Below, one piece after another: positions 4,829 to 7,937 of a DNA stretch of 52,961 bases. Source of the stretch: Bacteroidota bacterium (GTDB taxonomy: Bacteria > Bacteroidota > Bacteroidia > Bacteroidales > FEN-979); contig VGGL01000007.1 in assembly GCA_016868575.1 (NCBI GenBank), forward strand, positions 1 through 52,961, given 5' to 3'. Below the pieces are notes generated by a model, which saw only the letters and a list, made by a program, of their open reading frames with translations, did not search any database and was not told where the DNA came from. Numbering within the stretch: the stretch's first letter is position 1; each line of letters begins with the position of its first letter. The translations under genes were made by a program, and so were the position numbers.

Positions 4829-5557
4829 TTATGCTTTAATAACGACCATGTCGTCAGAAATGGTCTCTTTTCCAAGGAAGCACATCAGCAGCCGGGCAAC
4901 GGTGAGGACATCCTTCTGGCAATAGGTGACAATCCTTGGCAGGTCGTGGTCTTCCCAGTACACTTTCCACACATCGGCGCCGCCGATATCGTCTTTGGGG
5001 GATGGAAGATCAAAGGCCGCGGCCAGGAGGTCAAGGGAAGTGTAGTTCTTGAAATCGCCGAATTTCCACATCTCCATCGTATCCAGATGCTGGATTTCCC
5101 ATTTTTTCTTTCCGGACAGGTCAAGAATTCTGGGAATTCGCAAACGGTTGATGAGCATCCGGCGTGTCAGGTAAGGGAAGTCAAACTCTTTGCCATTGTG
5201 GGCACACAGCAGGTGCTCATCATGGTTGAAGGATCGTTCCAATAAAGCCCTGAAGTCATCCAGCAATTTCCGTTCATCATCCCCAAAGAAAGATTTGATG
5301 CGAAACTCGGAACCCCTTATGTACCCTGCCGAGATACAGATGACCTTACCAAATTCGGCATAGATCCCCGCTCTTGGAAAAAGATCTTCCGGAGACTTGG
5401 CCTCATTTCCGGCAAAACGGTCTTGTTTGTTCAGGTTTTCAGCCTTGAGGTCCCAATGTTTTCTGAATCTTTCAGGGAGGTCGGCGTACTTGCTGACCAT
5501 GGGGACGGTTTCGATATCCAGAAAGAGGATGTCGGAGGATTTCAGTGATTCTAACAT
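4829..5557 (-). CDS. 3'-5' exonuclease, PolB-exonuclease-like (RNase H fold)
   Basis: This is a predicted DnaQ/RNase H-fold exonuclease related to the proofreading domain of family B polymerases, without any polymerase domain. Three acidic motifs fit DEDDy: LDIETVP near residue 15 (D, E), AHNGKEFDFPYL near 120 (D) and the C-terminal YCQKDVLTVARLL (Y and D). It is 242 residues and cytosolic. Proteins of this kind are widespread and poorly studied in Bacteroidota; a role in DNA or RNA end trimming is inferred. It is monocistronic, and the upstream region is a degenerate intergenic repeat rather than a clear promoter. Confidence 0.75.
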   Translation of the reverse strand: MLESLKSSDILFLDIETVPMVSKYADLPERFRKHWDLKAENLNKQDRFAGNEAKSPEDLFPRAGIYAEFGKVICISAGYIRGSEFRIKSFFGDDERKLLDDFRALLERSFNHDEHLLCAHNGKEFDFPYLTRRMLINRLRIPRILDLSGKKKWEIQHLDTMEMWKFGDFKNYTSLDLLAAAFDLPSPKDDIGGADVWKVYWEDHDLPRIVTYCQKDVLTVARLLMCFLGKETISDDMVVIKA

Positions 5558-5569
5558 GGTTGTAATTTA

Positions 5570-5610
5570 TTTACCACAGAGATCTCAGAGAAGGCGCGGA
5601 GGTCGCAGAG
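5570..5610. repeat. left inverted repeat of GxxExxY cassette 1
   Basis: This begins TTTACCACAGAG and matches the reverse complement of 6095-6134 (TTAACCACAGAG...) at roughly three quarters of positions by eye. The outer 12 bases match at 11 positions and the inner part is more degenerate. Confidence 0.6.
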
Positions 5611-5652: not shown

Positions 5653-6030
5653 TTAATATCCATTTATGACCCTTTTAATTCCATTCTTTAACAGAGAAAC
5701 ATTAAAATTAATCAATAATCCAAGATGGTATTTGCCCAATTTCAGATATGTCAGTATCTGGGCCAGATGCACATCATTGATTGATTCAACGCTTTTTATT
5801 TCAACAACAACTTTTCTTTCAACCAGTAGATCCAGTCTATATCCACATTCAAGATGTATGCCCTCAAAAATCAAAGGCATTGGCTTTTCTTTTTCAACAA
5901 ATAGTCCAACCTGTTTTAGCATATAGAAGATACTTTCTTTATATGCACTCTCAAGAAGTCCTGGACCAAGCGCTTTATGAACCTCAATAGCCTGCCCAAT
6001 AACCAATCCCGCGATCTGATTCTCATACAT
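5653..6030 (-). CDS. GxxExxY protein (PDDEXK_3-like), copy 1
   Basis: This 125-residue member of the GxxExxY family shows GLLESAY near residue 24 (the name-giving motif) and a PD-(D/E)xK nuclease-like core, RLDLLV...VVVEIKS (D, then E-x-K). The family is common in environmental Bacteroidota and related phyla, and its function is unknown. A second, diverged copy lies 0.7 kb away on the same strand. Both copies sit between imperfect inverted repeats, suggesting they move or are maintained as small cassettes. No promoter motif is evident. Confidence 0.85.
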   Translation of the reverse strand: MYENQIAGLVIGQAIEVHKALGPGLLESAYKESIFYMLKQVGLFVEKEKPMPLIFEGIHLECGYRLDLLVERKVVVEIKSVESINDVHLAQILTYLKLGKYHLGLLINFNVSLLKNGIKRVINGY

Positions 6031-6094: not shown

Positions 6095-6134
6095 TCCGTG
6101 AACTCCGTGCATCCTTAGTGAACTCTGTGGTTAA
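6095..6134. repeat. right inverted repeat of GxxExxY cassette 1
   Basis: This ends in AACTCTGTGGTTAA, the complement of the left copy at 5570. The same CTnTGTGGT ending recurs at 7187-7197 and 51061-51072. Confidence 0.6.
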
Positions 6135-6151
6135 GTGACTGAACATGACTT

Positions 6152-6670
6152 CTATTCATAAGAGGTAGTTGTACCATCTCCCTGATCTCTTCTCCTCTCA
6201 GGAGAAGGGGAGTGAGGGGTTGAACTCATATGCAGTATCTTCCCGGCAACAAGTCTGTCAACCGGAAAGGTAAATTCTTCCTTATCCAGAATTGAAAGAG
6301 CTACCCATCGAAAGGTCTGTGCGCCGTCGATATATTCAAAATCAAATCTCTTTTCTGTAACTCTAATAACTACCTCTTTATCAACCGGTTCAACAAGGTA
6401 GTAGATGCTGATGAGTTGCCGGTTGGAGGGAAGAAGCTCGGTGGGCTGAAAGAATTCCGTTGTATAGAAATGGACCGGCTCCTTGATTTCCATGTTCAGC
6501 TCTTCCCGGAATTCTCTCCGGAGACAATCCACCGGGCCTTCGCCAAATTGTAGCCCGCCGCCTGGGAATTTGGTCATCGGTATACCTAACCGGAATTCAT
6601 CGGTAACGAGGATCTTCCCATCTTTAATCAATAGCCCGTAAATTCTAATATTGAAGCTCTTGTCTTTCAT
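6152..6670 (-). CDS. NUDIX hydrolase
   Basis: This is a cytosolic NUDIX-fold pyrophosphatase acting on a nucleoside-diphosphate-linked substrate that cannot be specified. The Nudix box is clear: Gly38, Glu44, then REFREELN at 52-59, with Asn where Gly is usual. The catalytic domain ends near residue 145. The last 25 or so residues (rich in Ser, Pro, Arg and Asp) are encoded by a palindromic intergenic repeat at 6189-6207 and its flanks. The native C-terminus has therefore probably been replaced by repeat insertion, or the true end was nearby. The gene lies between the two GxxExxY cassettes on the same strand. Confidence 0.8.
   Translation of the reverse strand: MKDKSFNIRIYGLLIKDGKILVTDEFRLGIPMTKFPGGGLQFGEGPVDCLRREFREELNMEIKEPVHFYTTEFFQPTELLPSNRQLISIYYLVEPVDKEVVIRVTEKRFDFEYIDGAQTFRWVALSILDKEEFTFPVDRLVAGKILHMSSTPHSPSPERRRDQGDGTTTSYE
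6189..6207. repeat. GC-rich palindromic repeat, copy A
   Basis: CTTCTCCT and AGGAGAAG form an 8-bp stem around a 3-base loop, followed by GGGAGTGAGGGG. It has the same plan as 33858-33896 and lies inside the 3' end of the NUDIX reading frame. Confidence 0.7.
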
Positions 6671-6715
6671 ATTCTTTCTGGATTTTGCAGCCTACTTTGA
6701 TCTCCAACCTTGCTA

Positions 6716-6745
6716 ATTCACCACAATAGGCACATAGGACACATT
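6716..6745. repeat. left inverted repeat of GxxExxY cassette 2
   Basis: This 30-bp element (starting ATTCACCACAATAGG) is the reverse complement of 7171-7200 at 27 of 30 positions. Its inner end overlaps the stop codon of the GxxExxY gene. Confidence 0.85.
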
Positions 6746-7160
6746 AGTACCCTTTTGGTAACTGTGAAAACAAGTCTGTAACCATAGTTTTTTGCCCTTC
6801 TTTAAAGATGTTTGTACAATTGAAGTTAATTAGAATTCCTTTGGGTTTTCTAAGGAGCCGCAGATAAGTAAGAAGCTGAGCCTCATGAATCGGCAATATT
6901 TGATCAACTGCCTTTAATTCAACAATGATCTTATCATCAACCATTAAGTCGTACCTTAATTCACAATCCAAGTATAAACCTTTAAAATACAATGGAACTT
7001 TCTGTTGATTTGATACCTTCATTCCTTGAATTCTCAATAGATGAATTAAACACTTTTCATATACACTTTCAAGAAGCCCAGGACCAATGTCTTTATGAAC
7101 CTCAATGGCAGCCACTATCACGGTATAGGTTAGAGAATTCAGATATTTTTGTGTTAACAT
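6744..7160 (-). CDS. GxxExxY protein (PDDEXK_3-like), copy 2
   Basis: This 138-residue protein is a paralogue of the gene at 5653-6030. It has GLLESVY near residue 28 and a nuclease-like RYDLMV...IIVELKA core (D, then E-x-K). The two copies are clearly diverged in sequence, so this is not a recent tandem duplication. The gene sits almost exactly between 30-bp inverted repeats at 6716-6745 and 7171-7200, leaving only about 10 bp between its start and the right repeat. Function is unknown; a nuclease-like or nucleic-acid-binding role is only an inference from the fold. Confidence 0.85.
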   Translation of the reverse strand: MLTQKYLNSLTYTVIVAAIEVHKDIGPGLLESVYEKCLIHLLRIQGMKVSNQQKVPLYFKGLYLDCELRYDLMVDDKIIVELKAVDQILPIHEAQLLTYLRLLRKPKGILINFNCTNIFKEGQKTMVTDLFSQLPKGY

Positions 7161-7170
7161 GTATTTTCCT

Positions 7171-7200
7171 ATTGTGACCTATGTGTCTATTGTGGTGAAT
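7171..7200. repeat. right inverted repeat of GxxExxY cassette 2
   Basis: This 30-bp element ends TCTATTGTGGTGAAT and is complementary to 6716-6745 with three mismatches. Confidence 0.85.
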
Positions 7201-7211
7201 AAGAAAAATGA

Positions 7212-7895
7212 TCAATACCTAATTTTTGCTGCACGCAGTATGTGTCTCTTTCCGGCGGGTCCTTTAAGTCGGGTGACGGTAAAGCCTGCTTCCCGCAAGG
7301 CTTGTTTGACAGATCCTTTCGATGAATAGGTAGTCAGTACACCCCCCGGATGCAGGGCATGAAAGAACTTTGCAAAGACCATTTCACTCCAGAGTTCGGG
7401 CTGCGTATCCGGAGAAAACGCATCGTGGAAGATCACATCAACACTTTCATCATCGAAACTTATCTCTTCCAGCCCGATTGGCCATTTCAGGAAATCGAAA
7501 TGCTCTGAAACTGAATTTCTTGTACTCCAGTCACACCGATGAAGTTGCAGAAAAACCTCAGAAGCCCGCTCCCAATTGATAATCTTGGAATAGTTGAGTT
7601 GTTGATAAACTTCAACAGGAACCGGATGAGGTTCGACTGTCAGATACCTTATCCGGAGGCCATATTCTTCCGCAAACCGGCAGGCCAACAGCGCATTGAG
7701 CCCCGTACCAAAACCTGTTTCAAAGACCACGATGTTGGTTTTACCCATATTCCTTGAATACTCCAGCCCTGCATGAATGAACACGTGCATCGATTCCTGA
7801 ATGGCTCCATTGATCGAATGATAATGTTCCTGAAACCTTTCTGAAAAGAGGGTATGCGATCCATCGGCGCTTATTTCCAAATTCAGCCCCATCAT
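7212..7895 (-). CDS. mnmD: tRNA (mnm5s2U34) methyltransferase, MnmD-like
   Basis: This is an SAM-dependent methyltransferase matching the methylating half of MnmC, here standing alone without the FAD oxidoreductase domain. It would carry out the last methylation of the mnm5s2U wobble base of tRNA. Visible motifs are the SAM loop FETGFGTGLN (58-67), the EPHP turn after beta-2 (89-92), and HDAFSPDTQPELW (157-169), characteristic of the MnmC family. Length is 227 residues. The E1 gene upstream ends 42 bp before this start. The gap contains a 32-bp motif shared with the lanC upstream region. Two adjacent ATGs (7895, 7892) are possible. Confidence 0.85.
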   Translation of the reverse strand: MMGLNLEISADGSHTLFSERFQEHYHSINGAIQESMHVFIHAGLEYSRNMGKTNIVVFETGFGTGLNALLACRFAEEYGLRIRYLTVEPHPVPVEVYQQLNYSKIINWERASEVFLQLHRCDWSTRNSVSEHFDFLKWPIGLEEISFDDESVDVIFHDAFSPDTQPELWSEMVFAKFFHALHPGGVLTTYSSKGSVKQALREAGFTVTRLKGPAGKRHILRAAKIRY

Positions 7896-7899
7896 TCTC

Positions 7900-7931
7900 T
7901 TAATCGGAAAAAAGGCAAAAGGTCATCTGTT
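7900..7931 (-). promoter_or_regulatory. 32-bp conserved element upstream of mnmD
   Basis: Read on the minus strand it starts AACAGATGACCTTTT and ends GATTAA. It matches 22262-22293, in front of lanC, at 29 of 32 positions in the same orientation. It ends four bases before the mnmD ATG and begins shortly after the E1 stop. Function is unknown; it could be a promoter, a leader RNA element or a short dispersed repeat. Confidence 0.6.
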
Positions 7932-7937
7932 AGATCC

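Follow-up and report, generated by a model that had tools for sequence, protein, structure and literature searches.

The window, a stretch of 52,961 nucleotides from a Bacteroidota genome (contig VGGL01000007.1), harbors a cassette of approximately 500 bp in which a single gene is held between two inverted arms. The cassette is located between two protein genes, an ORF at 6152-6670 that we take to be NUDIX-like and another at 7212-7895 that presumably encodes a methyltransferase-like protein, and not inside rRNA, where an rRNA intervening sequence would lie. The arms had already been noted in a preliminary description of this DNA, and the complementarity that it reported between 6716-6745 and 7171-7200, at 27 of 30 positions, was reproduced here; when extended, the arms reach 38 nt and are 87% complementary (Table 1). 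Their inverted-repeat score is 28, whereas base-shuffled flanks reached at most 17, with a 99th percentile of 14.5. The only ORF between them is an intact GxxExxY gene whose stop codon is overlapped by one arm, and the unit contains no transposase, the nuclease gene being the sole gene present, all of which agrees with what had been described. No Rfam match was detected between positions 5400 and 7400.

Table 1. Positions, in the window, of the two GxxExxY elements and of the insertion region.
Feature	Position	Strand	Basis
GxxExxY gene, PD-(D/E)XK nuclease (predicted), 138 aa	6744..7160	-	PF13366, TIGR04256; AlphaFold2 model; conserved core residues
Arm 5' of gene, minus-strand reading CACCACAATAG-ACACATAG-GTCACAATAG	7169..7206	-	Inverted repeat with 6710-6747; type common to six other genomes, same protein clade
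Arm 3' of gene, plus-strand reading CACCACAATAG-GCACATAG-GACACATTAG	6710..6747	+	Inverted repeat; overlaps stop codon
Insertion region between two host genes, 541 bp here	6671..7211	.	Eight relatives have 11-184 bp
Second GxxExxY gene, 125 aa, other clade	5653..6030	-	PF13366 E=3.4e-38; separate position on protein tree
5' arm of second element, CACAGAG type	6095..6134	-	Inverted repeat, score 18 vs shuffle 99.5% limit of 15.5
3' arm of second element, CACAGAG type	5570..5609	+	Inverted repeat

GxxExxY genes are annotated without a function. The 138-residue product matches both PF13366 (E=1.6e-37; 128.9 bits, cut-off 22) and TIGR04256 (E=1.3e-39; 135.1 bits, cut-off 35). Residues E31, D71, E81, and K83 show no variation among 35 diverse relatives, upholding the PD-(D/E)xK-like core that had been proposed for it, and Q95 and Y99 are kept in at least 90% of them. 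A sequence search of the PDB returned no match, and a Foldseek search with the AlphaFold2 model (pLDDT 95.8) identified SSO0001 (4ic1) and lambda exonuclease as the nearest structures, both resemblances being weak (E 0.009-0.04, query TM-score 0.42-0.50). The protein is predicted to be a Cas4/lambda-exonuclease-like PD-(D/E)XK nuclease. It shares the motif order E, D, ExK, QxxxY, and possibly the predicted fold, with Cas4, lambda exonuclease, and RecB-type enzymes, but differs from these in being a stand-alone protein of approximately 125-140 residues, encoded within its own repeat-bounded cassette.

A second GxxExxY gene, which the preliminary description had overlooked, lies 0.7 kb from the cassette and is flanked by its own inverted arms, whose sequence is unlike that of the cassette arms, while a third is found on another contig. 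Arms of the cassette's own type, CACAATAG, are also present on contig C28 of genome G000 (locus L014), upstream of an hsdS-like gene (800-860) and, in outward orientation, within the central linker of the same gene (1500-1580).

Eight relatives (G001, G025, G028, G031, G032, G033, G039, and G041) keep the two flanking genes adjacent, with 11-184 bp between the aligned ends as compared with 541 bp in the window; a GxxExxY gene is absent from this locus in all eight, and the cassette is therefore an insertion. In G028 a lone CACAATAG-type arm occupies the cassette spot. The occupants of another orthologous site in the window's family vary among relatives and include CACGAAG elements, CACAATAG elements, lone scars, and gene-less palindromes belonging to two other types; in some relatives the site is empty. 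In another genus, an intergenic site that is empty (approximately 44 bp) in several species holds GxxExxY genes in four others, enclosed by at least two distinctly different kinds of arms (CGCAAAG/CGCTAAG and CACAGAT); in each case the element starts at the upstream gene's stop codon. A Sphingomonas copy separates fabD from fabG by 464 bp, versus approximately 32 bp in S. paeninsulae, and leaves the order of the fab operon intact. Elements of the same clade are found at unrelated sites, although some intergenic sites recur, and appear to do so more often than copy number suggests in a sample that took occupied sites as its starting point. The cassette is thus an inserted unit that occurs in multiple copies, undergoes decay, and may be found at an orthologous site in one genome and be missing from it in another, and it is very probably a mobile cassette with matched ends. 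A comparison of loci for empty sites and target-site duplications had been proposed as a check; the former were found in the eight relatives and at other orthologous sites, while no duplication was detected, edge direct repeats scoring 3.26 versus 3.21 for permuted pairs (n=70) when the first unit is taken as the element edge. Two further observations concern individual sites: palindromes resembling CCCTGTCAGGGTTT...CCCTGACAGG are found in congeners (L277, L278, L279, L282, L283, L289, L294, and L299) at an intergenic site where other species have GxxExxY elements, and at L128 (G013, contig C86) an intact GxxExxY gene is accompanied in tandem by a second copy that has decayed and that shares its CACGAAG arms.

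The association of arms with GxxExxY genes is a general one. Among 43 genomes of the window's family, 26 contain between 1 and 13 GxxExxY matches, many of them decayed fragments, and 57 of the 71 loci analyzed have inverted arms no more than 200 bp from the ends of the gene, versus 2 of 51 neighboring ORFs (p=4e-14). With a stricter threshold, applied to a set spanning Bacteroidota to Chloroflexota, Planctomycetota, Acidobacteriota, and Proteobacteria, the counts are 46/85 and 2/226; the former is an undercount, since the Sphingomonas copy scored negative and yet visibly has TTCACGCGAAGGCGCGAGGACGCGAAG arms. GxxExxY genes are present in 250 of the 396 genomes surveyed in the window's class. 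Plasmid copies were found in eight records, all under 60% identity, and a phage or viral origin was rejected, as no GxxExxY match was found in phages or in viral contigs. A chance repeat was likewise rejected on the shuffled flanks and the neighboring-ORF controls. One could still envisage ordinary intergenic repeats that accumulate by chance beside a vertically inherited gene, and the same repeats do occur elsewhere in the genome without the gene; nevertheless, such arms are almost never seen at neighboring ORFs, and empty sites and multicopy insertions indicate that gene and arms move together, which makes this explanation highly improbable.

The arms themselves are short arrays of 7-8-nt units, spaced 8-12 bp from start to start with a mode of 10, preceded by a T-rich (A/C)ACC lead-in, and they often abut the start and stop codons of the GxxExxY genes. 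Gene-less copies include single arms, mixed arrays, and dispersed, tight inward palindromes of the same arms, of approximately 60-130 bp. The repeats are present in 20 of 26 genomes with GxxExxY genes versus 3 of 17 without (p=0.0002, a value that ignores kinship; p=0.002 within one genus), although repeat type and cognate GxxExxY clade are only modestly linked at the level of whole genomes (p=0.03), and two genomes, G022 and G024, have solo repeats and no GxxExxY gene.

Alternatively, the arms could function at the RNA level, pairing in the transcript so that a long stem forms around the gene and serves in protection, processing, or termination of the RNA, or allows self-regulation by the protein, with dispersal of the DNA as a by-product. 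The predicted RNA fold does have the arms paired at its base (z=-2.49), the elements often closely follow a stop codon, with 19 of 50 gene 3' ends lying within 15 bp, and the order of the fab operon survives insertion. However, the z-score is moderate, the region gave no Rfam match, and such a role would leave unexplained the insertion at new sites, the dispersed gene-less palindromes, and the 10-bp spacing of the units; it is consequently regarded as improbable.

PF05635 genes, which encode the four-helix-bundle proteins of 23S rRNA intervening sequences and are also small and multicopy, were employed as a control. In genomes of the same family, 27 of 30 PF05635 loci (L303-L332) have inverted tandem arms, composed of units of 7-8 nt with a period of 7-8 and of sequences other than those of the GxxExxY units, and these arms likewise vary in step with protein clade (Mantel r=0.35, 0/2000). 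The two systems are alike in that a small single gene is enclosed by inverted arms made of short tandem units that follow the clade, and they differ in period, in unit sequence, and in an unrelated protein family. Since PF05635 genes occupy analogous arms, a nuclease is not required for this architecture, and the parallel suggests that both families belong to a wider class, that of genes held between iterated inverted arms. These observations also bear on the two outcomes that had been named at the outset as counting against the proposal, namely GxxExxY genes devoid of repeats, or repeats equally frequent around unrelated genes: most GxxExxY genes do have arms and neighboring genes do not, but repeats are also found alone, and the PF05635 family is found in analogous arms of other units, so that the architecture is not exclusive to the GxxExxY nuclease.

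A further explanation is that the arms are the ends of a non-autonomous element of the MITE type, moved by another host enzyme, and that the nuclease gene is cargo that is useful to the host or to the element, for example in defense. The absence of a transposase from the unit, the analogous arms at PF05635 genes, the existence of gene-less copies, and the persistence of solo repeats in G022 and G024 all speak in its favor. MITEs and insertion sequences also resemble the GxxExxY unit in their short inverted ends, in presence or absence at orthologous sites, and in internally deleted derivatives, but differ from it in that the unit has neither transposase nor detectable target-site duplication and contains a conserved nuclease gene; in addition, an autonomous relative was not encountered, as related copies also carry GxxExxY genes. 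Y1 transposases, one candidate for the mobilizing enzyme, are missing from four GxxExxY genomes, lie elsewhere where they occur, and carry different repeats, leaving the action of a Y1/HUH enzyme in trans unsupported. Moreover, free exchange of cargo would break both the clade-matched arm type and the conservation of arms beyond neutral sites, described below. Passage of the gene as cargo is thus considered unlikely, though it is a more serious contender than a purely transcript-level role.

On the protein tree, arm type requires 16 changes, versus 36.9 with shuffled labels (0/200). The CACAATAG type, that of the cassette, corresponds to a single clade, made up of seven proteins from as many genomes (support 99/99), and CACTAAG to another (100/99); the remaining types are less tidy, CACAGAT not being clustered. 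In a motif-free test, the 5' arm of one element was compared with the 3' arm of another; their similarity climbs from 8.6 to 21.7 with increasing protein identity, whereas sequence 300 bp outside the elements stays flat at 7.7-8.8 over the same range; the corresponding Mantel test of arms versus protein yields r=0.61 (0/2000). Such co-variation could by itself reflect joint inheritance of arms and gene, and it is only the excess of arm conservation, not co-variation, that argues for function. Within the cassette's clade, protein identity (77%) is far above identity at four-fold sites (36%, saturated), indicating purifying selection on the protein, and the arms are 78% identical, a value conditioned in part on the units used for arm finding, although conditioning alone is estimated to yield approximately 50%. 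In the looser CGCTAAG group, arms are 45% identical, which is not above that estimate. As judged by sequence comparison, the arms follow the clade of the protein and have been conserved to a greater degree than neutral sites. Together with the empty sites, the multicopy insertions, and the gene-less derivatives, these features lend good support to the original suggestion of a gene with its cognate ends in a self-contained element.

The co-variation of arms and protein and the intact nuclease core suggest that the nuclease probably binds or recognizes its arms. The arm units, which lie approximately one DNA helical turn apart, would be suited to side-by-side binding of several copies of the protein, and recognition would involve the arms either as duplex or as a folded single-stranded hairpin. 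The nuclease could then cut or trim at the arms, and host repair or replication would move the element, gene-less palindromic derivatives being moved in trans; that cutting by the nuclease drives movement is plausible, although we place it slightly below an even chance. Products of excision or of cleavage were not observed. For the cassette as a whole, the reading as a compact, self-contained mobile element whose nuclease recognizes its own arms stands, in our estimation, evenly balanced.

In its behavior, the GxxExxY element resembles the REP/RAYT systems, or REPtrons, in which REP/REPIN repeats are associated with RAYT (TnpA-REP) HUH nucleases (PMC3116915, PMC8266576). Both have a gene between matched inverted repeats, dispersed gene-less palindromic doublets (which were found here as inverted doublets), and repeats that have co-evolved with the enzyme. 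Unlike in REPtrons, however, the gene between the repeats belongs to PF13366 and its product is of the PD-(D/E)XK and not the HUH/Y1 type, the arms are arrays of units 8-12 bp apart rather than REP stem-loops, and the gene, too, occurs in multiple copies and turns up at new sites. Homing endonuclease elements also have a small nuclease gene as the sole gene of a mobile unit, but the GxxExxY element has no single conserved target sequence and possesses its own inverted arms at both ends.

The element is rated as new because the unit holds no known class of mobile-element enzyme. It is plausible, and is put forward here tentatively, that GxxExxY cassettes represent a new class of autonomous mobile elements, in which one small PD-(D/E)XK nuclease would recognize, at either end, arrays that are specific to its clade and have their units 8-12 bp apart, and would move itself, as well as gene-less palindromes, without a known transposase or recombinase. 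The open-access literature searched contained no description of repeat-bounded GxxExxY elements, which is weak evidence given that most subscription papers and preprints lay outside it; searches with the repeat letters returned only unrelated text, GxxExxY is mentioned in two papers, with a passage in one of them concerning reverse transcriptases, and PF13366 is mentioned in one. If GxxExxY genes are indeed mobile elements bounded by matched repeats, this would explain together a large uncharacterized family of proteins and the many repeats dispersed between genes, and movement of DNA by a nuclease in place of a transposase would constitute a new principle of transposition, in a testable unit of approximately 500 bp.

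Two other repeats were observed in the course of this analysis. Several CGCAGAG-type elements have outer repeats of GGCTAAATCTTATTTTGATGTGCTGG type around them, beyond their arms (flanks of L054, L063, L065, and L059). In the window, a motif of 28-40 bp at 7895-7934 has copies that are approximately 92-94% identical at several other spots of the same genome, and is possibly a dispersed regulatory element.
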